From NCBI GenBank assembly GCA_963920705.1, contig OY987228.1, positions 21,306,363 to 21,370,362 on the forward strand: 64,000 nt of DNA. Direction: 5' to 3'. A model generated the notes under the pieces. That model had not been told where the DNA came from. It did not search any database and was given only the letters and a program-made list of their open reading frames with translations. Positions 1,551-59,299 of this stretch are shown here, piece after piece. The stretch is from Odiellus spinosus. Lineage: Eukaryota > Arthropoda > Arachnida > Opiliones > Phalangiidae. The translations under genes were made by a program, and so were the position numbers. Position 1 is the stretch's first letter, and each line of letters starts with the position of its first letter.

Positions 1551-1861
1551 TTCCTATTTGGCGTTGCTTAAACTTTAAATAAACATTGCTTTGAGCCTTT
1601 TTAATGGTTTTATAACAAAGAATACAGAAATAGGAGCTTAATTGGTCTTTCTAATTCGCTACGAAAATAAAGTTAAACTTTATTTTTCGATACCATACTT
1701 CTCACAATTCGAAATGGTGTAATGTGAAAAGTTCAGGCGGATTGATACTCAATGTTAAACCTTATATAGTATAAAAGGAGACTTATTTTTTAACCCCAGA
1801 TTATCAAAATTTAAAGGAAAACACTGATAAAAGCACAAAATAATTGTATAATAAGTCAAAC

Positions 1862-2198
1862 CAGAAGCCGATGAAATCCTCCTTTGAAGTCTATTACTCC
1901 CGGGTCTTGTCAACCCCTCTCTGTATGGGTTAGTTTCAAAAATCGCGATTCGTACGCCTCCTAACGGTTGATATTTTCGGAGCGGGAGTTCGTTGAGCGA
2001 ATATCTCTAGCAGCCTCGGAGTTCGTCAAAAAAACGTCGTCGTTTGTGGAGAGAGAGAATTTACAATTTTCCATAGACAGGGGGTATGAAGTAGGACCCC
2101 TCCGATCTCGTAAAACTGTGAATTTTACCCATACTGAGAGGAGCCCTATAAGGAACATTAGAGTAGTAGACTTCAAAGGAGGGTTTCATTTACTTCTG
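1862..2198 (+). mobile_element. MITE family B, copy 1
   Basis: 337-bp element with terminal inverted repeats of about 32 bp beginning CAGAAGCCGATGAAA. It is flanked by a perfect 7-bp duplication GTCAAAC (1855-1861 and 2199-2205). A subterminal inverted pair (CTCTCTGTATGGGT and its complement) lies inside the ends. Short open frames on both strands recur in every copy, but they are by-products of the repeat and resemble no transposase. Confidence 0.93.
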
Positions 2199-2205
2199 GT
2201 CAAAC

Positions 2206-3670
2206 TGTTCTATAATTCATTAAATTTACCAATTATTAGGTTCAAAAACCTTTTGCCAAATGGTACGCAAGTGTGTCCCCCTTCCCCCAAACATGTCACT
2301 CTATAAAAAAAAAATATTGAGTAATTGTCGAATAAGGTTTTAGTTCACATCGATCATTTTTCTAACGGTATTATATTTTAAAGTTTTTTTTTATATACGT
2401 ATATAATTTTTGCTCTTTTGTTAAAAACGCTTCTCATGTTCCTGGGACGATGGGGGTGAAATTAAAAACTGGGCGAGAGAGGGGAAAGGAAGAGGAGAGG
2501 GGATAAAAATTACGTTGTATGTAGAATTTGGAGCCGCTTGCTAGTCTGTCACGCTGTTGAATGTGGCTTAGAGAAAGGGTTAACACTCGTGTGTACGCTA
2601 TAGAGAAGAAGGAATTGAGAGAAAGAGATGGAAGAGGAAAGAGAGAAAAAAAATCTAGAGACAGAATTCAAATGGGTGAAAGAGAAACCCATCCATAATC
2701 CCTTTCACCCTCTCCTCTTTTTACTCAGTTAGATTTTAACCTCCCCCTATTTTTAACCCTTTTTCGGAAGATAGGCACACCCCCGCCCTTTTTTTTTTTT
2801 TTTTAACCCCTTCAGTACGTCACCCCCTAAAAGCGTCCTTTTCCTTGGCAACGCCACCCTTTCTACCCCTCGTATCTCATTGCTTTTATTTTTTTTTTCC
2901 TTTTCGCGTGTTGTGGGGGAAAGCTGCATTGGAGGGGTTTCCTCCCCTCTCTAAGGGAGGTGGGGAGGGTGAGTATGATAAAAAATAGTGAAAGAGAGAG
3001 AGAGAGAGAGAAAACTTCGAAAATCGATATTACCGTTAGTTTTACCCCTTTTAACCCTAAGCAGCGACTTCACCTCCTCTCCCTCTCTTTTTTGAGGAAC
3101 ACCATCTCACCCCCCTTCCATTTTCTATACAACTGTGCAGTGCAACCGAGACTGTAACGGGGGTCCCGTTAAGGTAGCGCCTTTATTCCGACCGCCAGAG
3201 TTGCTTAAAAGCCCATAGTAGCTAGATGGTCGATAACGGTATATGACGGGCTTCCACCTTAAACTGTACTCTATCCTTTTTTCCCTTGGAAGCTTTCTTT
3301 CCCCCCCACTTGGTTGCATTTTTTTTATCCTACCCACTTCTCTCTCTCTCTCTCTCTCTGACTGGAGTTACCACCCCTTCAGTGTTCCATCCCCCTTGAT
3401 GTTTTTCTTTCCCCCATTTTCTTGCCCCACGGTTCTTATTCAATCCTTTATACACCCTCAACTTCGATGCCGCATTTTTTTTCTTACTTTTTCTTCTTCC
3501 TTCTCTTTTCTGACTTCCTCCTTAACCCTTTTTACTCGGCTTTCAAACTTCTTCTCTCGGGCTTAATCTCACCCCTTCCTCTCCCCAAACCATCTCTCCT
3601 TTCCTTTTCTCCCTCTCTCTCTCTCTTCAGGCTCGGGATAAAATCCTTCTTACGAGCGACTTTTTTACCA
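2206..3670. repeat. Low-complexity purine/pyrimidine-rich flank
   Basis: Gene-free. From about 2430 to 3640 the + strand alternates between GA-rich and CT-rich stretches, including (GA)n at 2991-3011 and (CT)n at 3342-3359. The open frames at 3243-3679 translate to Ser/Leu/Phe low-complexity strings that reflect the CT bias. I see no domain and no splice structure. Confidence 0.6.
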
Positions 3671-3673
3671 GTT

Positions 3674-3676
<3 letters not shown>

Positions 3677-3706
<30 letters not shown>
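3677..3706 (+). repeat. Poly(A) tract
   Basis: About 29 uninterrupted A residues. This could be a simple repeat or the tail of a decayed retroelement. No retroelement body or target-site duplication can be recognised upstream. Confidence 0.8.
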
Positions 3707-3709
<3 letters not shown>

Positions 3710-4469
3710 GTTTTTTTTCTTTTTACGAAGATGTAATATTTTAGGACAAATTATTGACGTAACACTCGTTATAGGTCACGAGTGTTAAGTATTTAACCCA
3801 ATTATTTTGATTCTTAATTAAGATTAAAAGAAAACGTAAAAGTTTGGTCGTTTATAGGTCTTCCAATTTCTAGCCCCCCTTTTGGTCGGAGGCAAAAAAA
3901 AAAAGGGCTGGGCCGTTTCTCGAAGCGCGAGTGCTACTAGGAGAAGCCACTCCGCTGCCCCTATTCCGGCGAGAGAAGGGGGGGCGATTTATCCGAACGG
4001 GGCTCGTCCTACCACGCGCCTAGCGTCTCCCTAGTCGGGGTATTTTTTTGTCCCGGTTATACTCCGCGTCAATTTCCCCTGGTTGTATCCTTACCCCCTC
4101 AACTTTTACCCCGACCCCTCCTCTTTTCCCCGTTTTTTCTGTCCCCCATAGACCCCCGTGCGCGCTATAATCTTTACCCTCCTACCTCCGGCTCTCTCTC
4201 TCTCTCTCTCTAGGCTCTCCCTAACCCTTTTTCCTCGATTTCCACCCCCGTCTTCCCTTTTTGCCAAGCTGCGGGCTAGGCCCGGGCTGAGGCGCAACCA
4301 CCGTCTCTACTTTACCTCACCGACGGACTCGCGCGTCCGGGGCCAGACAGTTTTTTGCCTCTCTTCCAGCCTCGCGCCAATTCCAGGGCAGCTCTCCGTC
4401 GAAAATTTGCCGTCCCCCACTCACTCCCAGCCGCGCGCGAACGCCCGCGCGCGCTCGCTCGTTTTATAT

Positions 4470-4737
4470 TACGCGCGTTCTCTACTCTCCGAGGCTCTCT
4501 TGGAAAAATATCGCGCGCGCTCCGTTTTTCCTTTTAACCGTTAGCTGGCGAAGGTTTTACCGCTGGCTCGCGCGACGTCGCCCCAGGAGGAGAGTCCCCG
4601 CCGCCGTCGGTCCTCGCGACGGGCTCTCGGTAGCTGCCGGGCCGGGCGAGCGGGGTCCGAACCAAAAAACGACAACGCCATCGGTCCACCACCCAGTAGC
4701 CCGAAATCGCCGTTACTCGACCTTTCTCGTAGTTCCG
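4470..4737 (+). other. nab: Putative non-coding exon 1 (5' UTR) of nab
   Basis: The strong donor CCG|GTGAGT has its GT at 4738 and sits inside the CpG-rich block. It could splice over about 8.9 kb to the acceptor at 13593-13594, whose exon carries only five bases before the start codon. An upstream 5' UTR exon is therefore expected somewhere. The left boundary given is a guess just past the TATA-like sequence. Another first exon, such as one ending at 9849, is possible. Confidence 0.35.
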
Positions 4738-5217
4738 GTGAGTTGATTCTTCTCCGACGCGCCGAAAGATTCGCCCTGCCCTCTTGACCCCTCTCTTTCT
4801 ATCTTTCCTTCTCATCCCGGCGTCTCCTCGTCACCGCTCTCCTCTTCCGCGCTCCTTTTCTCCATTCATCCTCTTTGTCTTCCTAATCCCGGCCGGCACC
4901 TCTAATATCTAAGGCTGCTAAAAAAGTCTCGCCTTTCACCTCGTCCCTTCTCTTTCTCTCTCTCTCTCGCGTCGCTCGAAAGATAACAATAAGAAAATCT
5001 TCTCCCCTGACTACCGGAGAAAGTATAATAAAAGGAAAGCTGTTGGCATTGTCGAGCCTCGCCGGAGAAAACGAGGGATTGTAGCGTACCTCCGTCTCCT
5101 CGACATCACTTCCTTATAAAAAATTCCCGAGAGAGAGGGAGAGAGTCCCTGTATATCGCGATCGTAATAAAATGTGCGCGACCATTAATGGTACCGTTAT
5201 TCTCGCCGCGAGTACCC

Positions 5218-5240
5218 GGGTCCCTCGTCGCGAGGGACCC
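5218..5240. other. Short perfect hairpin in GC-rich DNA
   Basis: Ten-base perfect arms GGGTCCCTCG and CGAGGGACCC separated by TCG. It sits at the edge of the CpG-rich block. The function is unknown. Confidence 0.6.
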
Positions 5241-5249
5241 TTAAAAAAT

Positions 5250-7235
5250 ACGTAAAAAAAAAAGAAAAGAAATAAAAGCCTTCACTTTCTTATAGCGCCG
5301 TTTTTGTCGCTTTTATAATAAAAGAAAAAAAAGTGCGTTTATTTCGTATCGATCAACGGGTGCCTTCCGTCTTGCAGGATTATCTATAATAAGGATATCT
5401 TTTGCAAAGTATACGGTTCGTTTTTAATATAGAGTGAATTATTTTGTTTACAATTTCGTTTTAACTTTAGTTCAATTGATATATACTGATTCATTTTTAA
5501 TTTAACAAGCCGGGGGACAGGTATCAGACTCTGTAAGGGGTTACCTTTTAGTTTGTTTAAACCGGGGAAGCCGAACCACGCGTTTATTTCCGAATGAACG
5601 TGGTATTCTTCACCCCTTAGTCTCTCTTGACTCTTACGTAATTCGCTTCCCTGGAGTTGGCGATTCCGTGTCCGGCGCGCGCAGCTTTTCGACTCTAGAA
5701 AAGGGCTCGTTACGTTTTAATATCGATCCCTAGGTGTATACCCCCTTCTCCTCCTTTTACACACTCATACACACATACACACGATATACACGAGGCTACC
5801 GGGAGAAGATTTCCCTCAAAACACAATTCCCGAATAGGCGTATACCTGCCACGTGCTCTCGGATCCGTTCCTTTTACTAGATATATAGGCTAGTTCTTTT
5901 TCCCGCGTTTATTCCCATATACGTACACAAACCCCCGAGTTGTCGTACACCAACGGCACGCTACGAGACTCGCGTATATATCAGCGACTGACCTACAGAA
6001 AGAGAAATATAAATTATCGACTATTTTATTCACTCGTCCTCTAAAAATGTTACGATTTGGTTTGTTAACCTTTCCTTAAACGGGGTTGTAGAAACATTAC
6101 AGTAATTGGTTAAAAAGATTTCGTTACTTTAGTTTTAATGAATGATATCTAATTTTATTTTAATCGGGTTTGTTTTATAATAATTTCTGGATGGAATAAA
6201 ATTGAGGTTGGTTCTTTTGCATAAATTTTTTTATTTCCAAGAATATTTCCAGTGTTTCCAAACTTAATTAAAAAGAAATTTAGGCTTAATATGCAATTAT
6301 AATTATAAGAAATATTTCCAGTGTAAAATATTAAAACTGAAATTTGATTCGCACAAATTAAATTTGTTTTTATTTAGTCTTATTAATAGTTTTTTTGGGT
6401 TAACTATTTTTTACGAATTCCATTTGTATTTCAAGTAGACTTAAACTTTTAATTTTAACGAAAAAAACTTAACTTTTGTCAAATATACAGAGAAATTTAT
6501 TTTTATTTAAAACTCCCATCATTATTTTTAAGTCAAAATTGCTTGATTAAAAAATATATCATATATTTTCTTGTTACTTCCGGTTGGTTCCTATATCTGT
6601 AACTAAGGTTCCTTCTGCCTAAAATTCCATTCTAGCTTCTCCCAAAGGTTATATTTTTCAGAGAGGAAAATGATGTCAAAATTCCTGGGTGCCCAAGTTT
6701 ATTTTTAGATCATCTCTCCATCCTCTTAAACTTTTTTTAAACTGTTATTTATTTTTGAGGGATATTTGTTTTTTCAAATTCTACAGTTTTTTGGCTCCAC
6801 ACACCGTTTTTTTATAGATCTATAGATCTAGATGTTAGCGAAGAGTTTCGCCAAAAAATTTCTTTTTCAATTAAGAACGCTTTTATTTTTCTGGAAATTC
6901 TTTGTTTTCTCTTAATCCGTTAGCCAACTATTTAACTTTCACCCTGGGTTAATTTATTAGTCAGTTGGTGCGTAAAAATCTTCTAGTGAGTTAGGATTAT
7001 GTTCGCGATTAAGTAAATAACATGGTGTGCGTATTAATCCCGATAAATTTGGATATATCTATAATCCATTTCAAGTTTTTAACTCAAATTGACACCAGGC
7101 GTAAACTTAGACTGCCTTTTATCATTTAATTAACAAATCATATAATTATAATAGGTAGCCTATACCTTAACACGTTTTGCCAACTCTAGGTGGAATTACT
7201 ATAATTTAAATTGAGGTTGAGGATGACACCATTTT
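5250..7235. other. nab: Intron 1, no gene seen
   Basis: CpG content falls gradually until about 6000, then the sequence becomes AT-rich. I see no repeat family with multiple copies here and no coding signal. Confidence 0.5.
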
Positions 7236-7237
7236 TT

Positions 7238-7518
7238 TGAATAAGTACTTTTACAAAACAGACCGCGCGAAAGGGGCAGAGCGCGTGAGAATCAACTGCA
7301 GGCTCTACAATAGCGAAATCACGTGATCATAGTGATGACGTAGTATTACGTGGAATTTTATTTTAAAATTTTTTCGAAAGTGGAGATTACAAAATGGGTA
7401 TTTTTAATGTCACGGTAATTTTGTTCTATGACATATGTATATATATTTTGAATCCTTTTTTAACGATCTTTCCGAAAATGCTACTCAATTTTCATTTGTA
7501 GTTCATGAACTCACTATA
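7238..7518 (-). mobile_element. Dispersed repeat family G, copy 1
   Basis: Shares long blocks with copies at 19315-19595 and 24405-24705. One end is AAGTACTTTTAC followed by GACCGCGCGAAAG. The middle contains CACGTGATCATAGTGATGACG. The other end has TTTTTAACGATCTTTCC, CTCAATTTTCATTTG and a final TCATGAACTCAC. In the opposite orientation the family begins GTGAGGCTGTCATGAAC. It is non-coding. The class is unknown, and no convincing terminal inverted repeat was found. Confidence 0.7.
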
Positions 7519-8010: not shown

Positions 8011-8473
8011 TTAAAGGGAGAATGAAAGGCCGAAACAACCTATTTTTAATCGATAAAGAATGCTAAAATAATGAGAAAAACAATAATATAACGCACCAAA
8101 AATATTTCGTTCCGAAACTTGCGGATGCTAAGCCTTGGCTGCCTAGCTCGGCTAACTAGGCGAGCACGAGACGTATTTTCTTTAATATTCCCGTCTGATC
8201 TAGTCGCCAATCACGAGCGAGTACGTGTATTTTTAAAATACGCGTACTCGCTCGTGATTGGCCACAAGAACAGCCGCGAATATTAAAAAAAAATACAGGT
8301 CGTGCTAGCCTAGTTCACCGAGCCAGGTAGCCTAGGCTTAGCATCGGAACTTTGGAAATTGATTATAAAATAACGAAATATTTTTGGTGAGTTATATTAT
8401 TGTTTTTCTCATTATTTATAGCATTCTTAATCGATTAAAAATAGGTTGTTTTGGCCTTTCATTCTCCCTTTAA
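8011..8473 (+). mobile_element. Foldback MITE family A, copy 2 (longest)
   Basis: 463 bp between TTAA at 8011-8014 and 8470-8473, with AGGGAGAATGAAAGGCC termini. Nearly the entire element is an inverted repeat, with a palindromic centre around AAAATACGCGTACTCGCTCG. This copy keeps both inner segments that are missing or cut in copies 1 and 3, so it is the best reference for the family. No coding capacity. Confidence 0.88.
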
Positions 8474-8559
8474 AACAGGTGTAAAATTTGTTATAATTAT
8501 TCATAAAAGATGGTTACAGTCTTACTTTAATTTATAAAGAAAACAACTTTTTTTTATCG

Positions 8560-8620
8560 AATGGCAATGCTATGAGGTCATCAAATAAGAAAAATTCTTA
8601 AATTAGAAAATAGATTTTGG
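8560..8620 (+). repeat. CRE-bearing dispersed fragment, diverged copy
   Basis: Contains GGCAATGCTATGAGGTCATC, which resembles segments at 22040-22085 and 28370-28410 carrying an intact TGACGTCA. Here the CRE core has one change. It is probably a fragment of an unclassified dispersed repeat. Confidence 0.35.
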
Positions 8621-8745: not shown

Positions 8746-9082
8746 CAGAAGTAGATGAAACCCTCCTTTGAAGTCTACTACTCTAATGTTCGATATAACG
8801 CTCCTCTCTGTATGGGTAAAATTCCCAATTTTACGAGATCGGAGGGGTCCTACTTCATCCCCCCTGTCTACGGAAAATTGGAAATTCTCTCTCTCCACAA
8901 ACGACGACGTTTTTTGGACGAACTCCAAGGTTGCTAGAGATATTCGCTTGACGAACTCCCGCTCCGTAAACATCTACCGTTAGGAGGCGTACGAATCGCG
9001 CCTTTTGAGAATAACCCATACAGAGAGGGGTAGACAAGACCAGGGAGTAATAGACTTCAAAGGAGGATTTCATCGGCTTCTG
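8746..9082 (-). mobile_element. MITE family B, copy 2
   Basis: 337 bp, opposite orientation to copy 1. Ends are CAGAAGTAGATGAAACC and GGTTTCATCGGCTTCTG-type (diverged at two positions). Perfect 7-bp duplication GTTTTAC at 8739-8745 and 9083-9089. Confidence 0.93.
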
Positions 9083-10948: not shown

Positions 10949-11285
10949 CAGAAGCCGATGAAACCCTCCTTTGAAGTCTACTACTCTAATGTTCCTTATA
11001 GGGCTCCTCTCTGTATGGGTAAAATTCACAGTTTTACGAGATCGGAGGGGACCTACTTCATACCCCCTGTCTACGGAAAATTGGAAATTCTCTCTCTCCA
11101 CAAACGACGACGTTTTTTTGACGAACTCCAAGGCTACTAGAGATATTCGCTCGACGAACTCCCGCTCCGAAAATATCTACCGTTAGGAGGCGTACGAATC
11201 GCGCTTTTTGAAACTAACCCATACAGAGAGGGGTAGACAAGACCCGGGAGTAACAGACTTCAAAGGAGGGTTTCATCGGCTTCTG
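10949..11285 (-). mobile_element. MITE family B, copy 3 (no target duplication)
   Basis: 337 bp with intact terminal inverted repeats and the same orientation as copy 2. Unlike most copies its flanks do not match: AGAATGG on the left and CTAAAAT on the right. The duplication has decayed, or the copy is a recombinant between two insertions. Confidence 0.9.
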
Positions 11286-12010: not shown

Positions 12011-12229
12011 CATGGGCCAAGAAACGATAAATCCAGGGCATGACTCTAGCGTCTATTAAAAGACCGTTTTTTGGGGTCAAGTTTGTACAGTCAAAGCTAT
12101 GGCGTTTTGGGAACAAAGTGACGTCATATGACGTCACAAGCTGTACGAAGGCTGTTTGTTTGGCCGACTGAGAATTTTATTCCCTCAAATAGAGAGTCAC
12201 GTCCTAGATTTATCGTTTCTTGGCCCATG
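12011..12229 (+). mobile_element. MITE family L with 7-bp target duplication
   Basis: 219-bp element with long terminal inverted repeats beginning CATGGGCCAAGAAACGATAA. Perfect 7-bp duplication GTCAGAG at 12004-12010 and 12230-12236. The middle holds the perfect 20-bp palindrome GTGACGTCATATGACGTCAC (12118-12137), which is two cAMP-response-element cores. An inner arm, AGAGTCACGTCCTAGATTTA, pairs with the left end. Only one copy is present. The CATGG terminus matches the 44-bp element at 20333. Confidence 0.9.
12118..12137. promoter_or_regulatory. Double CRE palindrome inside MITE L
   Basis: Two TGACGTCA cores at 12119-12126 and 12129-12136 form a perfect palindrome. TGACGTCA is the consensus site for CREB/ATF bZIP proteins. 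Whether it is bound here is unknown. Confidence 0.5.
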
Positions 12230-12256: not shown

Positions 12257-12593
12257 CAGAAGCCGATGAAACCCTCCTTTGAAGTCTATTACTCCCGGGT
12301 CTTGTCTACCCCTCTTTGTATGGGTTATTCTCAAAAGGCGCGATCCGTACGCCTCCTAACGGTAGATGTTTTCGGAGCGGGAGCTCGTCGAGCGAATATC
12401 TCTAGCAGCCTCGGAGTTCGTCCAAAAAACGTCGTCGTTTGTGGAGAGAGAGAATTTCCAATTTTCCGTAGACAGGGGGAATGAAGTAGGACCCCTTATA
12501 ACTCGTAAAATTGGGAATTTTACCCATACAGAGAGGAGCGCTATATGGAACATTGGAGTAGTAGACTTCAAAGGAGGGTTTCATCGGATTCTG
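12257..12593 (+). mobile_element. MITE family B, copy 4
   Basis: 337 bp, same orientation as copy 1. Perfect 7-bp duplication ATAAAAC at 12250-12256 and 12594-12600. The right end has one change (CGGATTCTG). Confidence 0.93.
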
Positions 12594-12600
12594 ATAAAAC

Positions 12601-13791: not shown

Positions 13792-14108
13792 CAAGAATCC
13801 ATTCAAGTTCCATAAAAATATGGGAGCATAGCTTTAGCCTCTGGTACCATCCTCCCAAACTTTGTAACAAAAGTTCGTCCGCAATTTTCGCAACATTTGT
13901 ACGCTTAGATCTTTTTTCGGTCGGCTCCATTTTTATTACCCAAAAGATTATGTCAAGGTCGTTAGTGGCGCGGGTTAATAATATAATGTCAGGAGCGATT
14001 TACTTGAAAAATCGATTCGAAGCGGACGAACTTTTGCTACAAAGTTTGGGAGGATGGTTATTGAATCGCGGCCCTCCCATATTCTTATGGAACCTGAATG
14101 GATTCTTG
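13792..14108 (+). mobile_element. MITE family C, copy 1
   Basis: 317 bp with termini CAAGAATCCATTCA and its complement. A second, inner inverted repeat pairs CCATCCTCCCAAACTTTGTA (from about 13848) with its complement near 14040-14056. About 95% like the copy at 45781. Its flanks (CAATATA left, TTAAAAT right) do not form a duplication, unlike copies 2 and 3. Confidence 0.9.
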
Positions 14109-16349: not shown

Positions 16350-16370
16350 TTCATTCTCCCTTTAATAAAA
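16350..16370 (-). repeat. Solo terminus of TTAA foldback family
   Basis: CATTCTCCCTTTAA is identical to the right end of families A and H. The rest of the element is not recognisable to the left. Confidence 0.4.
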
Positions 16371-16806: not shown

Positions 16807-17142
16807 CAGAAGCAGATGAAACCCTCCTTTGAAGTCTATTACTCCCGGGTCTTGTCTACCCCTCTCTGTATGTGTTAGTTTCAAAAAGCGCGATTCGTAC
16901 GCCTCCTAACGGTAGATATTTTCGGAGGAGGAGTTCGTCGAGCGAATATATCTAGCAGCCTTGGAGTTCGTCCAAAAACGTCATCGTTTGTGGAGAGAGA
17001 GAATTTCCAATTTTCCGTAGACAGGGGGGATGAAGTAGGACCCCTTCTAACTCGTAAAATTGGGAATTTTACCCATACAGAGAGGAGCGCTATATGGAAC
17101 ATTGGAGTAGTAGACTTCAAAGGAGGGTTTCATCGGCTTCTG
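16807..17142 (+). mobile_element. MITE family B, copy 5
   Basis: 336 bp. Perfect 7-bp duplication ATCCTAC at 16800-16806 and 17143-17149. Same orientation as copy 1. Confidence 0.93.
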
Positions 17143-17437: not shown

Positions 17438-17766
17438 CAGAAGCCGATGAAACCCTCCTTTGAAGTCTACTACTCTAATGTTCCTCCTCTCTGTATGGGT
17501 AAAATTCCCAATTTTACGAGATCGGAGGGGTCCTACTTCATACCCCTTGTCTACGGAAAATTGGAAATTCTCTTTCTCCACATATGACGACGTTTTTTTG
17601 ACGAACTCCAAGGCTGCTAGAGATATTCGCTCGACGAACTCCCGCTCCGAAAATATCTATCGTTAGGAGGCGTACCAATCGCGCTTTTTGAAACTAACCC
17701 ATACAGAGAGGGGATAAACAAGACCCGGGAGTAATAGACTTCAAAGGAAGGTTTCATCGGCTTCTG
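17438..17766 (-). mobile_element. MITE family B, copy 6 (internal deletion)
   Basis: 329 bp because of an 8-bp internal deletion just after the left inverted repeat (TAATGTTCCTCCTCTC instead of the usual longer spacing). Perfect 7-bp duplication GTACACC at 17431-17437 and 17767-17773. Confidence 0.93.
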
Positions 17767-20332: not shown

Positions 20333-20376
20333 CATGGATTAATTATAAGTGCCTAGGGACGTATAATTAATCCATG
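20333..20376. mobile_element. 44-bp micro-MITE M with 7-bp duplication
   Basis: A palindrome with arms CATGGATTAATTATA and TATAATTAATCCATG around a 14-base centre (GTGCCTAGGGAC-like). It is flanked by a perfect 7-bp duplication ATCAGAC at 20326-20332 and 20377-20383. The CATGG terminus and duplication length match element L at 12011. It appears to be an element reduced to little more than its ends. Confidence 0.8.
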
Positions 20377-20999: not shown

Positions 21000-21336
21000 C
21001 AGAAGCCGATGAAACCCTCCTTTGAAGTCTACTACTCCAATGTTCCATGTCGCGCTCCTCTCTGTATGGGTAAAATTCCCAATTTTACGAGTTAGAAGGG
21101 GTCCTACTTCATCTCCCCTGTCTACGGAAAATTGGAAATTCTCTCTCTCCACAAACGACGACGTTTTTTTGAAGAACTCCAAGGCTGCTAGAGATATTCG
21201 CTCGACGAACTCCCCCTCCGAAAACATCTACCGTTAGGAGGCGTACGAATCGCGCCTTTTGAGAATAACCCATACAGAGAGGGGTAGACAAGACCCGGGA
21301 GTAATAGACTTCAAAGGAGGGTTTCATCGGCTTCTG
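21000..21336 (-). mobile_element. MITE family B, copy 7
   Basis: 337 bp with intact inverted repeats. Perfect 7-bp duplication ATATTGA at 20993-20999 and 21337-21343. Confidence 0.93.
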
Positions 21337-23344: not shown

Positions 23345-23359
23345 TTCGTGTGAATTGAT

Positions 23360-23875
23360 TTTATATTGTGAGAAATTTTGAGAATTCAAAGATTTTAAAT
23401 TGGGAGAAATTTTGAGATTTCAAAGATTTTAAATTGGGAGAAATTTTGAGATTTCAAAGATTTTAAATTGGGAGAAATTTTGAGACTTCAAAGATTTTAA
23501 ATTGGGAGAAATTTTGAGATTTCAAAGATTTTAAATTGGGAGAAATTTTGAGATTTCAAAGATTTTAAATTGGGAGAAATTTTGAGATTTCAAAGATTTT
23601 AAATTGGGAGAAATTTTGAGAATTCAAAGATTTTAAATTGGGAGAAATTTTGAGAATTCAAAGATTTTAAATTGGGAGAAATTTTGAGATTTCAAAGATT
23701 TTAAATTGTGAGAAATTTTGAGATTTCAAAGATTTTAAATTGTGAGAAATTTTGAGATTTCTAAGATTTTAAATTGGGAGAAATTTTGAGATTTCAAAGA
23801 TTTTAAATTCGGATAAATTTTGAGATTTCAAAGATTTTTTTCAAAGATATTTTTGGAAGAAATTGTGAGATTTCA
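23360..23875 (+). repeat. 34-bp minisatellite, about 15 units
   Basis: Head-to-tail repeats of GGGAGAAATTTTGAGATTTC plus AAAGATTTTAAATT (34 bp). Inner units are nearly identical. Outer units are degenerate, with GTGAGA variants at both edges and a shortened last unit near 23840. There are no spacers, so it is not a CRISPR array. Low internal divergence suggests recent expansion. Confidence 0.92.
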
Positions 23876-24918: not shown

Positions 24919-25257
24919 CAGAAGTAGATGAAACCCTCCTTTGAAGTCTACTACTCTAATGTTCGATATAGCGCTCCTCTCTGTATGAGTAAAATTCCCA
25001 ATTTTACGAGATCGGAGGGGTCCTACTTCATACCCCCTGTCTACGGAAAATTGGAAATTCTCTCTCTCCACAAACGACGACGTTTTTTTTTGACGAACTC
25101 CGAGGCTGCTAGAGATATTCGCTCGACGAACTCCCTCTCCGAAAATATCTACCGTTAGGAGGCGTACGAATCGCTCTTTTTGAAACTAACCCATACAGAG
25201 AGGGGTAGACAAGACCAGGGAGTAATAGACTTCAAAGGAGGGTTTCATTGGCTTCTG
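24919..25257 (-). mobile_element. MITE family B, copy 8
   Basis: 339 bp. Perfect 7-bp duplication ATCTAAC at 24912-24918 and 25258-25264. The left end shares the GTAGATG variant with copy 2. Confidence 0.93.
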
Positions 25258-26303: not shown

Positions 26304-26709
26304 CAGAGGTATATAATAACCTCCTTCGGGGGGAAGTATGAAAGCCCCTATACTACCAATGCTAAAAATCACGAACAACAAGAGCCCGCTGCTGACTATC
26401 TAGGCCACTAGCTCGCGCTGGACTTCTCAATGTCGCTACTCTAGTAAATGGTCTTTGTATAAACAAGACGGCTCGATTTGTGTTTGGAACTTCCTGTCTC
26501 GGGAGTCAGGCTGTCTGTTAAATTGGAGTCGAAGGTTGACTTCAGCTCGCGAGTTCCGGAAGTGTGCGTAGGGAAAATTTAGTGAGGTTCAAAATGGTGT
26601 AACTATTTTTTGGGAGTAAAGCGGTGTGTCGATCCGTCGCGATCTTGTTGTTCGTCGATTTTGCCTACCTTTCATACTTCCCCCCGAAGGGGGTTATTAT
26701 ATACCTCTG
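26304..26709 (+). mobile_element. MITE family D, copy 1
   Basis: 406 bp with terminal inverted repeats CAGAGGTATATAATAACC and its complement, followed inside by a TTCGGGGGGAAGTAT block also repeated in inverse. Perfect 7-bp duplication ATTTTAT at 26297-26303 and 26710-26716. An inner pair (CGAACAACAAGA and complement) gives a nested stem. No coding capacity. Confidence 0.92.
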
Positions 26710-29629: not shown

Positions 29630-29945
29630 CAAGAATTCATTCAGGTTCCATAAGAATATGGGAGGGCCGCGATTCAATTACCATCCTCCCAAACTTTGTA
29701 GCAAAAGTTCGTCTGCTTCGAATCGATTTTTCAAGTAAATCGCTCCTGACATCTATTATTAACCCGCGCCACTAACGACCTTGACATAATATTTTGGGTA
29801 ATAAAAATGGAGCCGACCGAAAAAAGATCTAAGCGTACAAATGTTGGTAAAATTGCAGACGAACTTTTGTTACAAAGTTTGGGAGGATGGTACCAGAGGC
29901 TAAAGCTATGCTCCCATATTCTTATGGAACCTGAATGGATTCTTG
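29630..29945 (-). mobile_element. MITE family C, copy 2
   Basis: 316 bp with termini CAAGAATTCATTCAGG and complement. Perfect 7-bp duplication GTAATAC at 29623-29629 and 29946-29952. Reverse orientation to copies 1 and 3. Confidence 0.93.
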
Positions 29946-31354: not shown

Positions 31355-31693
31355 CAGAAGCCGATGAAACCCTCCTTTGAAGTCTATTACTCCCGGGTCT
31401 TGTCAACCCCTCTCTGTATGGGTTAGTTTCAAAAAGCGCGATTCGTACGCCTCCTAACGGTAGATATTTTCGGAGCGGGAGCTCGTCGAGCGAATATCTC
31501 TAGCAGCCTTGGAGTTCGTCAAAAAAAACGTCGTCGTTTGTGGAGAGAGAGAATTTCCAATTTTCCGTAGACAGGGGGGTATGAAGTAGGACCCCTCCGA
31601 TCTCGTAAAATTATGAATTTTACCCATACAGAGAGGAGCGCTATATGGAATATTAGAGTAGTAGACTTCAAAGGAGGGTTTCATCGGCTTCTG
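31355..31693 (+). mobile_element. MITE family B, copy 9
   Basis: 339 bp. Perfect 7-bp duplication ATATTAT at 31348-31354 and 31694-31700. Confidence 0.93.
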
Positions 31694-33314: not shown

Positions 33315-33652
33315 CAGAAGCCGATGAAACCCTCCTTTGAAGTCTATTACTCCCGGGTCTTGTCTACCCCTCTCTGTATGGGTTAGTTTCAAAAAGCGCG
33401 ATTCGTACGCCTCCTAACGGTAGATATTTTCGGAACGGGAGTTCGTCGACCGAATATCTCTAGCAGCCTTGGTGTTCGGCAAAAAATCGTCGTCGTTTGT
33501 GGAGAATGAGAATTTCCAATTTTCCGTAGACAGGGGGGTATGAAGTACGACCCCTCCGATCTCGTAAAATTGGGAATTTTACCCATACAGAGAGGAACGC
33601 TACATCGAAGATTAGAGTAGTAGACTTCAAAGGAGGGTTTCATCGGCTTCTG
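33315..33652 (+). mobile_element. MITE family B, copy 10
   Basis: 338 bp with intact ends. The flanks CTTTCAA and CTTTCCC agree at five of seven positions, a partly decayed duplication. Confidence 0.92.
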
Positions 33653-34448: not shown

Positions 34449-35030
34449 CTACGGTCACACTAGCGTTTCTTAATCGATTTGAAACCGTAAAATCAAACCG
34501 ATATTCAAATCACCAGGAAACGTAGCGTTCACGCGTTGTCTTTACAAATCGATTTATCGTAGCTTCATCTATTCAAGAAGGATCAGACAAGGAGAGGAAA
34601 AGTGGGGACGGCGCAGTTCCTACTACGTCGGCCTAAACTCCCACTCTGGGAGAACGGGGGTAGAGATGTTTCGTGGTAAAATGTTGTCACGTGAATAAAA
34701 CGGATCCTTTATGAGACGCGTAGTAACCGACGACGCTAGTGACCACGTGACAACAGTTTACCTCGAGAATTTCCTATTCCCCTTTCCACCCGAGTGGGAG
34801 GTTGGCTCTTCTCTCTCTAACTCAACGCAGCCCCACTTTTCCTCTCCTTGTCTGATCCTTCTTGATCTATTGGTTGTTGAAACCGAATCGGTTCGAAACT
34901 GGTTCCCGAAGCAGTTTCGAGAAATCGAATCAAATCGATTTGGGAAAAGACGGTTTCCCGTTCACACGACTCTAGCGAAGCGTTTGGAAACGGTTTAAAT
35001 CGATTACAAGGAATAGTATGAACGCGGTTA
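34449..35030 (+). mobile_element. Family E, copy 3, split by element F
   Basis: Left part 34449-34573 (ACGGTCACACTAGCG..., AAAATCAAACCGATATTC, AGCTTCATC). Right part 34865-35030 (GAAACCGAATCGGTTCGAAA, AAGACGGTTTCCCGTTCACA, GTATGAACGCGGTTATGG). The two halves match the continuous copy at 14830, so F inserted into an existing E. The outer ends ACGGTCACACTA and TAGTATGAACGCGGT are roughly complementary, suggesting short inverted repeats for E. Confidence 0.7.
34574..34864 (+). mobile_element. MITE family F nested in family E
   Basis: 291 bp with long inverted repeats beginning CAAGAAGGATCAGACAAGGA. Perfect 7-bp duplication ATCTATT at 34567-34573 and 34865-34871. It interrupts the family E element, so it is the younger insertion. 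The open frames crossing it at 34711-35101 are chance. Confidence 0.9.
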
Positions 35031-44527: not shown

Positions 44528-44764
44528 CATAGAGACTTTTAATATAGGGAGTGGAAAGTTGAGGCGAAGATGTAGCTCAAAACAACCGTTGTAAAAGGCC
44601 GGGTCGATTTCCGGTATAGCTTTCCTCTAACGCGGGGTGATGTCATGTGACCGGAAGTTGGCCCGGCCAGTTATTAGAATTGGCAAAGGTTGCTTGGGGA
44701 GCTACATCTCGTTTTGCCTTGCCAAAGGCAGGATTTTCTACTCCCTATATTAAAAGTCTCTATG
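44528..44764 (+). mobile_element. MITE family N with 7-bp target duplication
   Basis: 237 bp with inverted repeats beginning CATAGAGACTTTTAATATAG (near-perfect for about 27 bp). Perfect 7-bp duplication AATAAAT at 44521-44527 and 44765-44771. An inner pair, GATGTAGCTC and GAGCTACATC, extends the stem. Single copy. No coding capacity. Confidence 0.9.
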
Positions 44765-45780: not shown

Positions 45781-46097
45781 CAAGAATCCATTCAGGTTCC
45801 ATAAGAATATGGGAGCGTAGCTTTAGCCTCTGGTACCATCCTCCCAAACTTTGTAACAAAAGTTCGTCTGCCATTTTCGCAACATTTGTACGCTTAGATC
45901 TTTTTTCGGTCGGCTCCATTTTTATTACCCAAAATATTATGTCAAGGTCGTTAGTGGCGCGGGTTAATAATATAATGTCAGGAGCGATTTACTTGAAAAA
46001 TCGATTCGAAGCGGACGAACTTTTGCTACAAAGTTTGGGAGGATGGTTATTGAATCGCGGCCCTCCCATATTCTTATGGAACCTGAATGGATTCTTG
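45781..46097 (+). mobile_element. MITE family C, copy 3
   Basis: 317 bp. Perfect 7-bp duplication ATCATAT at 45774-45780 and 46098-46104. Closely resembles copy 1 at 13792 in the same orientation, so the copies have diverged little. Confidence 0.93.
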
Positions 46098-54100: not shown

Positions 54101-54829
54101 CTATCTAACCCGTAAATGCCCTCTGGATAACCCCTAAATATTTTTGAAGCTTATGCCCTAAAGATTGTTGTCCGTGCTAGCACGCAGGGGCAACGGGTTA
54201 AAAAAAAAACTATAGTAGAGGAGAGATGGTAATACTGTTCCTGAAAAAACGCGTTAGGCCTAGTAAGTCTTGTGGGAAGCTAAAAAGCTGCGGGCTCTAT
54301 ACTTTTTGAGCCACAAGATTGGGTTGTGTAAAATTGAAAGGCGGATTAATATACGATGTTAAAACGCGTATGGATAAAAGTAGTTCTTACGTCCGTACAT
54401 AAAAAAATGTCCCAGAATGTAACCCCTTTGAATCCCTCTTTACCCCGTTTCAACTTCTTCCCCCCTTTTGGTGTGAATCACTATCGACTAAGGTAACCAA
54501 CCCCCTTTAAAAAAATTAAATTTTTTTCTTTTCCTTTTTTAAGGGGTTGCTAACCCTTTCCCCGTTTTCGTTCGCCATTCTTTCGGGGGTTCCTCCTATC
54601 GTCCATCTGCTGTAATAGCGTTTTTTAATCGCTAGAGCTTTTTTTTTATGTTTTTAAAGTAAGCTTTCGCCCTAATGTCGGCTGCGAATATTTCAAGGGG
54701 AGATATTGGGTTATATGGTCTCATTGTGGGGTAGTCACGTAACCCTTTCGAACCTTTCCATGGCGTCCCTATGACTATGAGTTATATCTATACCCCTCTC
54801 CCCCCGCCAACCTCCTTAAACTTTTATAC
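51160..54829. other. nab: Next intron of nab, no exon recognised
   Basis: AT-rich. No NCD2-like continuation was found in any + frame. The degenerate repeat at 52970-53460 is listed separately. Confidence 0.5.
52970..53460 (+). repeat. Degenerate GTTCAAGGTTA repeat array
   Basis: At least seven occurrences of (A)GTTCAAGGT(T/C)A or close variants at irregular spacing of about 45-100 bp, often followed by a short T/C-rich or TGTCA stretch. An old, strongly diverged tandem array. The ORF at 53254-53550 runs through it and is a by-product. Confidence 0.55.
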
Positions 54830-54836
54830 GTGTAAC

Positions 54837-55360
54837 CAGAAGTAAATAAGAGGAAGTAGGGATCCTTGCCTATTTGAGGAGTCGCCACTTTTACGATTTT
54901 TGGCGGGAAACCGAAATCCCGAAAGGTCATGAGTATATTCGTAGTTAGATTTTTCTATGGTTTGAGATTAGGGGTCATTTTTAACCTCTTTCATGTCCGT
55001 ATCAACATCAGTATTAACTTTTTGAGTCTTAGTTTTATCTCCGTTTCTTCAATGCTAACGTGGCCAAGGCTTAAACTATATCACTCGTGTTGAGCACAAT
55101 ATCATTCCGCTTTTGGTTTGAAATTTTTCGCTACTAGTTTCTCGATAAGTTCAAACTGTTGCTAAACGCGAAATGCCTGAATCAAACTTGACAGAAAATC
55201 CTAAACTCAGTTTGTAGTTCGTGTTACGGCCGTGTGGTGGCGCTTCTCAGAAAATAGGCATCAAACAACTGCCTCTCTCTAATCGGCTACATTCAAAATT
55301 GTGGCGTGAGCTCTTTTTTAGGTTCAAGGGACGTCTCCTACTTCCTTCTATTTACTTCTG
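54837..55360 (+). mobile_element. MITE O, CAGAAG ends
   Basis: 524 bp with inverted repeats CAGAAGTAAATAAGAGGAAG and complement (about 24 bp, one or two mismatches). The flanks GTGTAAC (54830-54836) and GCATAAC (55361-55367) agree at five of seven positions. It shares the CAGAAGTA terminus with some family B copies but nothing inside. No coding capacity seen. Confidence 0.8.
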
Positions 55361-56161
55361 GCATAACTGACGTGCTTGCAGTTGGGGCTCTTTCAAACTG
55401 ATTTTAATTAGTAGAACGCTATGGTTAGGATTTAGAATATGTAACTTTATCTAGAGTATTTAAATGACCAAAGTGAATAGATTATTTTATGTCTCCTTTG
55501 GATATTGACACGAAAGCTTATATTTGAGTACTCTTTTTTTTATTTCACCTAACTCAAAAATCATTTAACTCCAAAACCTTTACGTAAAAAGCACTTAAAT
55601 TGAAAATCTTCAAGACCAAAACTCTATTTTTCACACCCTCTAAATTACAAATCATTTAAAAATCAAAAGTTACAGCTTATCCAGTTAGTTTCATTTCCAA
55701 TCTTTTAAAACTGGTGCTCAGGGAGAGGCTTAACTTCCAGAAGCGAGGAGCGAATAATGAGCTAATATGTTTTTTTTTTATCATTTATTCAATGGGCAAA
55801 CGGGCGGCTAATTAAGGTAAATTATATGTTCCACAAAGTACCCTCTAAATTTTAAAGGACCAGTTCGGGAAGCAATTTTATCTCTTCAGTTAGTGGACGC
55901 GATGCGGTATACGTATCGAGAAAGACAATGGCTTTTCTTTTTCAATAGATTCTATTCTCTCTAGCGCTCTCTCTTTCGGTAGTTACATTGAAACTCTACT
56001 AAAATTACCCGGCCAAAGGAAGTTCCTCATTTCGTGGTCAAATATCTTCCAAAACTTATCGTGGCCAAATTTGGGGGAAATTTTAAAATGTACGTTATAT
56101 AATTTTGTTCAATATATGTTTCATATACTATAGAAACCCAATGTGGATTAATACCTATTAT

Positions 56162-56547
56162 CAGAGGTATATAATAACCCCCTTCGGGGGGAAGTATAAA
56201 AGGTAGGCAAAATCGACGAACAACAAGTGCCCGGCGTAAATCGCGGCGGATCGACACACCGCTTTACTCCCAAAAAATAGTTACACCATTTTGAACCTCA
56301 CTAAATTTTCCCTACGAACACTTCCGAGACTTGCGAGCTGAAGTCAACCTTCGACTCCATTTTAACAGACAGCCTGACTCCCGAGACAGGAAGTTCTAAA
56401 CACAAATCGAGCCGTCTTGTTTATACAAAGACCATTTACTAGAGTAGCGACATTGTCAGCAGCGGGCTCTTGTTGTTCGTGATTTTTAGCATTGGTAGTA
56501 TAGGGGCTTTCATACTTCCCCCCGAAGGGGGTTATTATATACCTCTG
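56162..56547 (-). mobile_element. MITE family D, copy 2
   Basis: 386 bp, inverted relative to the copy at 26304. Perfect 7-bp duplication CTATTAT at 56155-56161 and 56548-56554. About 20 bp shorter than copy 1 because of small internal gaps. Confidence 0.92.
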
Positions 56548-56629
56548 CTATTATTAAAACGCAATTGGATAGATTAAGTTCTTGAAAATAGGCCTTTTTA
56601 TAAAATAATCTTGGAAATGGATAAAACAC

Positions 56630-56800
56630 CCGTTAAAAAGCACCCGTTTATATTGAAGATGTTGCCTTTTTTCAAGGTTGGTACAAAGTATTGGATATTC
56701 TATATTTTTGCCAACCTTGAAACTAACAAAAAGAGCCGTTAAATAGAACCTGTTTCTGTCGAAGATGTTCCCTTATTTCAAGGTTGGGATGAAGTCAGAA
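56630..56800 (+). repeat. Local direct duplication
   Basis: GAAGATGTTGCCTTTTTTCA plus AGGTTGGTACAAAGT near 56656-56690 is repeated as GAAGATGTTCCCTTATTTCA plus AGGTTGGGATGAAGT near 56761-56795. An inverted CCAACCTTGAAA lies between them. Two diverged units with a spacing of about 105 bp. Confidence 0.55.
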
Positions 56801-58272
56801 TTTATATTATCGTCTACTAAACTTGAACAGATATTCATTCACCTTATGGTGTTAATCTATAGCCTTTACCTAATTTTTTTACATATCCATGAATATATTT
56901 TCGGTTTCATCCTTGAAAATACGTTAACCCCCCAAAAATACAGTTTTCTATGGGGGTATTGATTTAGGCAACCATTCTCCAAGCAATACCAATAATATTT
57001 AGCTATTATAAGATTTCAAAAATATTTGTGTCAAGTAATCAAGGATAGATAGTGTTCAGTTCCAAAAAAAAGTTTTTTTCACCTACGCTGTCCTTTTCAG
57101 GATGCTAACACTGAGACCTGGATGCTCGCTTGAAACTACACTAGCGGCCAGTTTTTAATTTTCAGTAGGTACGAAAGTATAGACCTTTTTGAATCTCCAA
57201 ACTATTTATGGGTTTCTTATAAATCTAAAGAGAAAGGACCTTTAGCTTAGTAAACGTTGCAAACCCAAATTGTAATTTCTATCCGGTATATATACGAAGA
57301 GAACTAGAGGGGGTGTTCTTCTTGTCCGATATCTCTCCTCCTCCGGTCCGGGACCCCGATAATAAATGAAAGCTGATTTGCATATTGATTCTATACCTTC
57401 CTTTTCAGGAAAGAAGACCTCCCTAGCCCCTTTTCCACCACCTTTTTTTAGTAGATAGAGTATCCCCTATGAAAAAAAAAATCCTCTGAGGGATCTTTTC
57501 GTGGGAAATAGACAGGCGAGTACGGGGTACCGAAAGGGGTAATATGGTACCCACTATAAAGCCTATATAGCTTGCTTTAAAAAAATTAGTTGTCCATCAT
57601 TATGTTAAAAAAAAATCCCCCTTCATTGACTGGTATCTTTTTAATTTTTTTCTCTCTCTCTCACTCACTCTAAAGGTTTCCTTTTCCTCCTAGTAAAGAA
57701 TAGGAAGAATTTATAATGACTTTAGATTGTCCGTTCTTTAGTTTTTTAAAGTAGGCTTAACAGTTTGGCCTAAAAGTTTTGAAAGATAGCTTTATAAAGG
57801 GAAGATAGGGAGAAGTAACGTGAATACTGTCTTCATTTTTTTATCGTCTTCCGGACTTTATCTTTTGACGGACAGTTAGAATTTTTTTTAAGGGCACCTA
57901 TCCTCTTAGAGGGTTATTTACATACCGGTCTACATCACGTTTTAGTTACTGTATAGTTTAAGGAAGGGTTTTTCACAATATCTCTAGTTTTCTACCGTTT
58001 TTTCTCGAGGAAGCGTACGTGTCTGTCTACGAGTATAGGGATTGATTTATCGACTTCATTGTAGTGACCGGAAAGGGTATTTTTTTAAATGAACAAATTC
58101 TTCTTCAATAGAATTATTTGCAACTTCCTTGAGAATTAACCGTTAGAACAAATTGCGTCATAATGCATGTAGGCATAGTTTCCTCCGTTGCAGTAAAAAA
58201 TTATTTATTGTAGTATAACTCAAGGTTAGAATAGGTTTAAACTGAACTATTTTTATTATAACCAGTCCACAA
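56801..58272. other. nab intron, no feature seen
   Basis: 1.5 kb with no recognised repeat family or exon. Confidence 0.4.
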
Positions 58273-58279
58273 GTTATAA

Positions 58280-58615
58280 CAGAAGCCGATGAAACCCTCC
58301 TTTGAAGTCTATTACTCCCGGGTCTTGTCTACCCCTCTCTGTATGGGTTATTCTCAAAAGGCGCGATTCGTACGCCTCCTAACGGTAGATGTTTTCGGAG
58401 CGGGAGTTCGTCGAGCGAATATCTCTAGTAGCCTTGGAGTTCGCCCAAAAACGTCGTCGTTTGTGGAGAGAGAGAATTTCCAATTTTCCGTAGACAGGAG
58501 GGATGAAGTAGGACCCCTTCTAACTCGTAAAATTGGGAATTTTACCCATACAGAGAGGAGCGCTATATGGAACATTGGAGTAGTAGACTTCAAAGGAGGG
58601 TTTCATCGGCTTCTG
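58280..58615 (+). mobile_element. MITE family B, copy 11
   Basis: 336 bp. Perfect 7-bp duplication GTTATAA at 58273-58279 and 58616-58622. A one-base deletion in the CCAAAAACG tract fuses internal frames into a 113-codon open frame. This is still not a gene. Confidence 0.93.
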
Positions 58616-59299
58616 GTTATAATAATATAGTTTAACTTAAAAAAATCAAACTTTTTTAAGTATATCCATCAAGTTATAGTTTCAAATCATCTTTTATTTT
58701 AACGCGTTTTCGGAGGCAGTATATTTAAAATACTATATCTTCTAATCCCAACACATAATCTATAAAATTACAAATCTTAATAGACGGAGAGTGTCGCTTT
58801 ATCAAGGGGGTGGTAAGTCCAAGACGAAAAAGAAAAATTTAAAAATCCATGCCCCGCCCACTATATACACCCTGAACCCCAGTCTTTTTTTATACATCCA
58901 CACAGTCCACCACATCAGGCAATGAGAGAGATAGAGAGGAAAGGGGTATGGGGACTTGGGAATGGATGGTTGTGTAGTAGCGGCTATAGGAGAAGGATAG
59001 CGGGGGGAAAGGGAATAGAAGAAGAGTCAACTAATTCAGCGTCCACTGACTCCCATCCCTAATCAATAGTTAATTAAACGCGCCATTAAATGGGGGGAAG
59101 GGGGGAAATGAGAGAGTGTTCGAGCCTGGTAAAGAAGGGGGGAACTCTTCTTTAGGTGTTGCGTATATTATCGGGGGTAACTCTCTTGGAGGAGGCGGGA
59201 TAGGATAAGCATCTTGCTCTCGCTCTTCCCTCTTCTCTCTCTATATTCCTTGCAAACCTCGCTTGACGCTGAAGATAAGGCGTAGGGTTATCAGCGAGT

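Follow-up and report, generated by a model that had tools for sequence, protein, structure and literature searches.

The 64,000-nucleotide stretch of Odiellus spinosus DNA analysed here (the window) carries many small gene-less transposons (MITEs) with a 7-bp footprint. These elements are very probably non-autonomous members of the P superfamily. Their movement would depend on transposases supplied in trans by a P clade that joins the two strands at sites 7 bp apart. Judged from sequence, a longer relative of one such family, outside the window, suggests that the enzyme behind the 7-bp footprint belongs to the P-element superfamily.

When one representative of each of six families was used as a homology query against the window, 19 full-length copies were identified (11 of family B, three of C, two of D and one each of F, L and N). 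Adding the 44-bp element M brings the set to 20 full-length elements, 17 of which have a perfect target-site duplication (TSD); the other three, two of family B and one of family C, are marked as such in the following list.

1862..2198, + strand, MITE family B, 337 bp, TSD GTCAAAC
8746..9082, - strand, MITE family B, 337 bp, TSD GTTTTAC
10949..11285, - strand, MITE family B, full length, no TSD (flanks AGAATGG / CTAAAAT)
12011..12229, no strand assigned, MITE family L, 219 bp, 37-bp terminal inverted repeat (TIR) CATGGGCC..., TSD GTCAGAG
12257..12593, + strand, MITE family B, TSD ATAAAAC
13792..14108, + strand, MITE family C, full length, no TSD (flanks CAATATA / TTAAAAT)
16807..17142, + strand, MITE family B, TSD ATCCTAC
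17438..17766, - strand, MITE family B, TSD GTACACC
20333..20376, no strand assigned, palindromic element M, 44 bp, TSD ATCAGAC; single copy and the weakest case
21000..21336, - strand, MITE family B, TSD ATATTGA
24919..25257, - strand, MITE family B, TSD ATCTAAC
26304..26709, - strand, MITE family D, 406 bp, TSD ATTTTAT
29630..29945, - strand, MITE family C, 316 bp, TSD GTAATAC
31355..31693, + strand, MITE family B, TSD ATATTAT
33315..33652, + strand, MITE family B, full length, TSD decayed or absent (CTTTCAA / CTTTCCC, 5/7 bases agree)
34574..34864, no strand assigned, MITE family F, 291 bp, 34-bp TIR, TSD ATCTATT
44528..44764, + strand, MITE family N, 237 bp, 30-bp TIR, TSD AATAAAT; subterminal repeats 10 / 25 bp inside the TIRs
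45781..46097, + strand, MITE family C, 317 bp, 35-bp TIR, TSD ATCATAT; subterminal repeats 19 / 15 bp inside the TIRs
56162..56547, + strand, MITE family D, 386 bp, 41-bp TIR, TSD CTATTAT; subterminal repeats 13 / 26 bp inside the TIRs
58280..58615, + strand, MITE family B, 336 bp, 39-bp TIR, TSD GTTATAA; subterminal repeats 15 / 18 bp inside the TIRs

The family N element is 97-100% identical to 40 scored full-length copies in the genome. A preliminary description of the window had listed 17 perfect 7-bp duplications, and all 17 of these 7-mers were found where expected, on either side of a CA...TG element; for ATTTTAT, two further pairings (2145 and 53 bp) also turned up and were set aside as chance. 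On recount, position 2 is T in 16/17, exactly as described, and position 6, described as A in "most", is A in 14/17. The observation of CA...TG MITEs with 7-bp TSDs in the window is confirmed as real.

As a chance control, we scanned without regard to family for segments of 40-800 bp whose ends were inverted at 12 or more of the 16 terminal bases and that were flanked by direct repeats of a set length. With 7-bp repeats, CA ends gave 40 pairs, as against none for GA and CC, one each for TA and AC, two for GG and seven for AA. At other repeat lengths, CA ends gave three pairs (6 bp), 17 pairs (8 bp) and none (9 bp); as itemised, 16 of the 17 8-bp pairs lie within one tandem array at window positions 60256-60870. 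The scan is noisy for AT-rich ends, with many low-complexity TA and AA pairs at other repeat lengths (for example, 450 for TA at 9 bp), and a looser version (10 of 16 terminal bases) returned, at 7 bp, 43 pairs for CA but 645 for TA, 824 for AA and 58 for AC.

For family and TSD statistics, the genome was sampled at 16 arbitrary places of 10 kb each. Among 32 copies beyond the window, 23 have a perfect 7-bp TSD and five have one with a single mismatch. When the window and the rest of the genome are taken together, a perfect 7-bp TSD flanks 39 of 51 copies with CA...TG ends; the remaining 12 comprise five with one mismatch, six with no TSD and one with a 6-bp TSD. The proportion is 35/46 after dropping four families whose representatives had been found through their 7-bp TSD. 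Genome copies with 8-bp duplications, which the preliminary description had named as evidence against its own reading, are absent among the 51 CA...TG copies, as are TSDs of the hAT form (8 bp, nTnnnnAn).

The palindromic target preference proposed earlier is likewise borne out: in a tally of 41 TSDs, T at position 2 and A at position 6 each occur in 35, R at position 1 in 32 and Y at position 7 in 30, with the full RTNNNAY pattern matched by only 17/41. Symmetrising 38 insertions over the two strands gives the consensus target RTANTAY. The palindromic pattern reaches past the TSD itself, as expected for the P superfamily: 63% have T at -2, and 63% have A at +10.

Where measured, TIRs in the window families span 30-41 bp. 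Two small groups have starts in common past the CA, namely CAAGAA (C, F and L037) and CATAGA (N, L013 and the 8-bp L025); apart from these, TIRs differ between families. Families B, C, D and N have inner repeats at unequal spacing (15/18, 19/15, 13/26 and 10/25, respectively), and in each of them none of 1000 mononucleotide shuffles was as good. In family F the inner repeat is only 9 bp long and sits equally far from both TIRs (12/1000 shuffles as good), and no inner repeat was detected in family L (454/1000) or near the TIRs of the L013 element, which is tied to the transposase described below. In Drosophila P, the available excerpts give unequal inner-site spacing of 9/21.

The link to a transposase was made for one family, outside the window, by reading 960 bases of one 5.2-kb locus. 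The starting point, L013:4491-5035, is a 545-bp element with a 7-bp TSD, whose family is absent from the window's set. Its query positions 1-331 and 376-545 match both ends of C3:116545-121761 (5217 bp in all), where the flanks, CTGAAAC-CATAGAAAATAAATGT...ATTTATTTTCTATG-CTGAAAC, form a perfect 7-bp TSD. Inside this locus, 901 bases (L060) translate to P-type exons, yielding 237 amino acids of transposase with a TNP-like GTP-binding domain (PF21788, E 4.5e-20), an RNase H C-terminal domain (PF21789, E 6.1e-8) and similarity to Drosophila P transposase 6p5a (E 2.7e-4). All eight GTP-contact residues of the Drosophila enzyme, as listed in the available part of PMC7776569, are retained, plus E531. 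No listed PF12017 match falls inside the locus, and neither does any match to the hAT dimerisation domain (PF05699) among those listed (150 scored of 220 candidates). The P-like option of the preliminary description is thereby supported: a long relative was identified for just one 7-bp family, and it has P-superfamily transposase exons.

For the window families, an end-pattern search found no long partner of family B (146 matches, first 100 listed). Among the matches listed, opposed pairs no more than 11 kb apart occur at C2:6011099/6013322 (2.3 kb) and C3:23849673/23859739 (10 kb), while C11:2869976/2870241 is a short copy; bases next to the opposed matches look like MITE variants. The corresponding search for family N gave 0 matches. 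Family C gave 138 matches (100 listed, letters for 82), and among those listed there is one opposed pair, 4.3 kb apart (C4:20830260-20834536), and one palindromic site (C2:21055893). A scan for CA...TG elements of 800-9000 bp with 7-bp TSDs returned pairs only at the level of other ends. The autonomous-element search suggested earlier turned up a long relative with P exons for one 7-bp family outside the window and, among the matches listed, no long partner for B or N.

The preliminary description had inferred that one transposase lineage mobilises many MITE families. As a clade this is plausible, with 180 matches in the genome to the C3 7-bp transposase, several families of which are multi-copy long open frames (672, 649, 856 and 801 amino acids). 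In the strict form, with a single P transposase moving all families, the idea is unlikely: the families do have the length of the TSD, the target pattern and the CA...TG termini in common, but their TIRs diverge after the first few letters, and no long partner was detected for B (first 100 of 146 matches) or N. Since the relatives of the 7-bp transposase are many and diverse, it is more economical to assume several enzymes that recognise different ends. We infer that the transposases acting on families B, C, D, F, L, M and N are related P enzymes, and that there are probably several of them, each recognising different TIRs, and not a single one.

Dada-like transposons have TSDs of 6-7 bp, compatible in length, and target multicopy small-RNA genes; an Rfam scan of the window returned no family at its cut-off, so it seems that the insertions do not lie in genes of this kind. 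The only long 7-bp element found codes for a P transposase. A Dada origin is judged extremely improbable. hAT elements are abundant in this genome (150 scored matches to the dimerisation domain, of 220 candidates), and their ends often begin with CA. The MITEs could come from hAT elements whose stagger had contracted from 8 to 7 bp, and hobo is also a TIR DNA transposon with a palindromic target; however, hobo and other hAT elements are not known to have a P-type GTP-binding domain, hobo makes 8-bp TSDs, kept in 1,196 of 1,198 insertions in the available text of PMC3276498 (Table 3), and C3:116545-121761 holds P exons and no PF05699 among the matches listed. We regard this origin as very unlikely. 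It is also quite improbable that an unrelated 7-bp element at C3 merely hosts the P gene as an insertion nested within it, the 7-bp superfamily then being another one. The P exons do lie between the two halves of the 545-bp element, at a locus read in part, but no match to query positions 332-375 was reported at C3, which a simple insertion would leave (so short a fragment could miss the threshold). Moreover, target and TSD length agree with 7-bp P elements as described in the available literature excerpts.

The earlier remark that a 7-bp duplication is unusual does not hold for the P superfamily, where the available texts describe precedents with the same target pattern. In D. melanogaster, 1360 has a 7-bp TSD in 274/279 insertions and the target GTTNAAC (PMC3276498), the likeness lying in TSD and target. 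Galileo, also from Drosophila, has a mostly 7-bp TSD, a palindromic GTANTAC target and, compared by description, many internally deleted copies (PMC4168063, PMC2775673, PMC3573991); three 8-bp TSD cases are given for D. willistoni. Its TIRs differ from those here in being long and internally repetitive (about 300 bp to 1.2 kb vs 30-41 bp). With P elements of this TSD length and target type already on record, the families described here would be new members. The Drosophila P element has the same GTP-binding and RNase H domains as the 7-bp C3 element and, as far as the available excerpts describe it, resembles the families here in the terminal G at the joined end and, as regards B, C, D and N, in unequal inner-site spacing, but differs in its 8-bp TSD and its target, GTCCGGAC.

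Modelled on Drosophila P, the transposase would bind the element ends through the TIR plus, in B, C, D and N, the inner repeat unequally distant on the two sides. It would then pair the ends, with GTP bound beside the terminal base, which would fit the constant 3'-terminal G of the CA...TG ends. Both 3' ends would be joined to the palindromic AT-rich target RTANTAY, and repair would then duplicate 7 bp.

Less expected was the presence of 8-bp and 9-bp P lineages beside the 7-bp one in the same genome. Examination of 13 of the 68 PF12017 matches as P loci revealed one lineage with an 8-bp TSD in 3/3 cases (L025, L026) and another with a 9-bp TSD in 11/11 (L027). The 9-bp lineage has an open transposase frame of 926 amino acids (L027:2298-5075) and a THAP domain (PF05485, E 2.5e-12), and among the pieces compared it scores highest against the Drosophila enzyme, an 8-bp cutter. 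A literature search for P-element TSDs of 9 bp found no report.

Several loci were discarded. Element ends could not be defined for L028-L036. At L031, an inverted repeat bounded by perfect copies of TGACGTCA looked like an element with an 8-bp TSD; it was not counted because TGACGTCA is common in the genome (25 sites in 316 kb vs 3.3 expected from base composition). At L037, the frame behind the PF12017 match also resembles TFIIA and is probably not a transposon. The 768-bp element at L014 turned out to contain an unrelated abundant repeat, and a further repeat inserted in L029 confounded the DNA search made with that locus. L024 proved to be a satellite array.

Since TSDs of 8 and 9 bp are made by other P lineages in this genome, stagger length seems to be set lineage by lineage, not for the superfamily as a whole. 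It is likely that P-superfamily strand-transfer spacing is variable: CA...TG lineages in one genome, keeping the GTP pocket, would cut 7, 8 or 9 bp apart, with the 9-bp lineage scoring highest, among the pieces compared, against the 8-bp Drosophila enzyme and the 7-bp clade having bred many otherwise unrelated MITE families. Orphan MITEs are assigned to superfamilies by TSD length, and this genome indicates that CA...TG ends together with a 7- or 9-bp TSD can be the mark of a P element; P-driven MITEs elsewhere may therefore be misfiled as unknown, hAT or Mutator. With three staggers in one superfamily and one genome, and a solved Drosophila structure, it becomes possible to ask which part of the transposase sets the spacing of the cuts.

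All 17 insertions listed for the window in the preliminary description have CA...TG ends and identical 7-bp flanks. In this stretch (C4:21306363–21370362 of the 443-Mb assembly), our homology search identified 19 full-length copies of six MITE families (B, 11; C, 3; D, 2; F, L and N, one each), and the window also holds a single 44-bp palindrome, M. Perfect target site duplications (TSDs) flank 17 of these 20 elements; of the three that lack them, two belong to family B and one to family C. Palindromes of about 40–44 bp with CATGG...CCATG ends, very short for a transposon, occur at window 20333–20376, with a perfect 7-bp TSD, and at L028:5758–5798 in another locus of the genome, perhaps also with a 7-bp TSD, the locus end cutting the flank.

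Inverted-repeat pairs flanked by 7-bp direct repeats numbered 25 in a family-blind scan of the window and 16 places of 10 kb, and 21 of these pairs had CA...TG ends. In a wider scan (40–800 bp, at least 12/16 terminal matches; window and a larger set of loci), 7-bp repeats accompanied 40 CA...TG pairs versus 0 to 7 pairs for other ends. CA ends were found with 6-, 8- and 9-bp repeats in 3, 17 and 0 pairs, respectively. When the CA/8-bp pairs were itemised in a smaller scan, 16 of 17 lay inside one tandem array (window 60256–60870), and the seventeenth was an 8-bp element in locus L009. AT-rich ends (TA, AA) produce abundant low-complexity pairs once the repeat length is changed or the threshold loosened, so the CA/7-bp contrast is drawn from the stricter scan and from ends that contain G or C. 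Tandem repeats were noted as follows:

window 60150–60829, 22-bp unit x 31
window 23357–23838, 34-bp unit x 14
window 63231–63526, 28-bp unit x 11
L024, satellite of roughly 370-bp units along a 10-kb piece of C18

We surveyed TSDs in copies of ten families from the window and sampled loci, picked without requiring a TSD. The preliminary description had held that variable or 8-bp duplications elsewhere would speak against it; the sample did not bear this out, since 39 of its 51 CA...TG copies have a perfect 7-bp TSD, five have one mismatch, one has 6 bp and six have none. Outside the window, 23 of 32 are perfect and five have one mismatch. If the four families (of ten) originally spotted by their 7-bp TSD are set aside, 35 of 46 copies are perfect and four have one mismatch. 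Three more copies break the CA...TG rule; at two of them, L004:1501 and L017:8226, the flanks are still matching 7-mers, next to an element whose last base has changed. The sample is partly non-random: L002–L008 were chosen as good B matches and L025 onward for their P matches, and L009–L024 are arbitrary. One 10-kb piece, L023 (C17:9000001–9010000), carries a dense cluster of six B, C and D MITEs with perfect 7-bp TSDs.

Across 41 TSDs (38 plus three added by hand: L037, a B copy in L026 and the long C3 element described below), position 2 is T and position 6 is A in 35 cases apiece (binomial 4e-12 for either position, background assumed 0.325), with R at position 1 in 32 and Y at position 7 in 30. 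The proposed RTNNNAY pattern is matched in full by 17 of 41 TSDs. In the strand-symmetrised flanks of 38 insertions, T is also preferred at −2 and A at +10, in 63% of cases for either base. The resulting consensus, RTANTAY, matches the targets of known 7-bp P elements, given as GTANTAC for Galileo (PMC4168063) and GTTNAAC for 1360 (PMC3276498); the latter source assigns 8-bp TSDs to P and hobo, unlike Galileo and 1360. Since 7-bp P elements are already published, the putative P families of the window would be new members of that kind.

In families B, C, D and N, an 11–21 bp repeat lies inside the TIRs at unequal distances from them (B 15/18, C 19/15, D 13/26, N 10/25 bp), matched by none of 1000 mononucleotide shuffles each. 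The inner sites of Drosophila P are likewise unequally spaced, at 9 and 21 bp (PMC7776569). F has an equally spaced 9-bp inner repeat (12/1000 shuffles as good); no inner repeat was found in MITE family L (454/1000 shuffles) or near the TIRs of L013, the family tied to P. A CRE-like palindrome, TGACGTCA, is over-represented (25 sites versus 3.3 expected from base composition), at window 12119, 12129, 22050, 28386 and 46635 and in other loci; two sites are central in MITE L. A second MITE group has AGGGAG...CTCCCT ends (window 744–1125, 8011–8473 and 30606 onward; more ends at 16350, 28108 and 63800). Its flanks are TTAA, which suggests that it targets TTAA and has no relation to the CA...TG families.

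Genome profile searches gave 68 matches to PF12017 (P) and at least 150 scored matches to PF05699 (hAT), so both superfamilies were in play at the outset. The longer elements and their relatives are:

L013:4491–5035, 545-bp element with a 7-bp TSD; few relatives (best 40 of 77 candidates scored)
C3:116545–121761, one of those relatives, with both ends of the L013 element 5.2 kb apart, flanked by the perfect 7-bp TSD CTGAAAC
L025:1386–5811, 4.4-kb element flanked by the 8-bp TSD GTTATAAC, with P-transposase frames and the TIR CATAGATATATG...
L027:1787–5579, element with a TIR of only CAA; its inner repeat GTGCCAACGCT lies 31 bases from one end and 6 from the other
C4:20830260–20834536, one opposed pair of C ends 4.3 kb apart, a candidate long C element

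The 901 inner bases of the C3 element (L060) contain P transposase exons, matching PF21788 (GTP-binding, E 4.5e-20), PF21789 (RNase H C-terminal, E 6.1e-8) and Drosophila P transposase 6p5a (E 2.7e-4). All eight GTP-contact residues are identical, as is the catalytic E531. The contacts are K385, K400, V401, S409, F443, D444, N447 and D528, and the bound GTP touches the terminal transposon base G-1 (PMC7776569). The constant TG-3' ends fit this contact. A protein search with the exons gave at least 180 matches, multi-copy long open frames among them (150 of 323 candidates scored), indicating a large clade. The matches listed for PF12017 and PF05699 all fall outside the C3 element. A less likely reading, with 30 + 29 + 901 bases of the 5.2 kb read, is that the P gene is nested there inside an unrelated element. 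Taken as part of the 7-bp element, the exons support the earlier guess of a P-like transposase, but through the L013 family, outside the window.

For the window families themselves, B ends yielded 146 places with the inner TIR followed by non-MITE bases, the 100 listed mostly resembling MITE variants. The 40 scored genome copies of N are 97–100% identical to the window copy, and the N long-partner pattern fitted no place in the genome. From the shared ends, TSD length, target and the inner-repeat layout of four families, we infer that the window families are moved in trans by P transposases.

Other P lineages make longer duplications. The L025 lineage has 8-bp TSDs in three of three cases: L025, a shortened copy in L026 (ATTTCAGC) and a 1.2-kb L009 element (ACATTAGT), placed here tentatively by the start of its TIR and by its inner motif. 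The motif AGATGGCGCT, which resembles a CTCF core, has six sites in 316 kb versus 0.2 expected from base composition (L025:1488, L026:863, L009:7104, L009:8061, L013:4943, L023:4951), five of which are about 90–125 bases away from an end of an 8-bp or 7-bp element.

In L027 the P transposase frame runs without interruption for 926 aa and includes THAP, HTH, RNase H and GTP-binding domains (E 8.3e-88 to 6p5a), keeping seven of eight GTP-contact residues (K400 is N). In a DNA search (best 40 of 413 candidates scored), its copies end at about L027 1787 and 5579, also with CA...TG, and at least 13 shortened copies were seen. L027 and the end pieces of 10 copies all have perfect 9-bp TSDs (CATTTCGAT, CTGGGAATT, AGCGTTGCC, GGTAACAGG, CGTAGAAAC, GACCTCCAT, ATAACACCG, AGCTAAAAT, CGTTTTACC, GATTTTGCC, CCAAGGCTT); these eleven show no strong base preference of the T2/A6 kind.

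Table. Scores against Drosophila P transposase 6p5a
L027 (9-bp TSD): 298 bits over 488 aa
L029: 72 bits over 250 aa
L025 (8-bp TSD): 27 bits over 255 aa
L060 (7-bp TSD): 24 bits over 55 aa

The compared pieces differ in length, so these scores can do no more than hint that, among them, the 9-bp lineage is nearest to Drosophila P.

Drosophila and zebrafish P make 8-bp TSDs (PMC7776569), and the open-licence papers searched, as far as their text was available, contained no report of 9-bp TSDs for P elements. What goes beyond the published 7-bp P elements is the presence of 7-, 8- and 9-bp P lineages together in one genome. The Tetris foldback element, with 8–10 bp TSDs, was placed in Mutator from TSD length and earlier views of foldbacks (PMC4079207), which shows how heavily TSD length weighs in classification.
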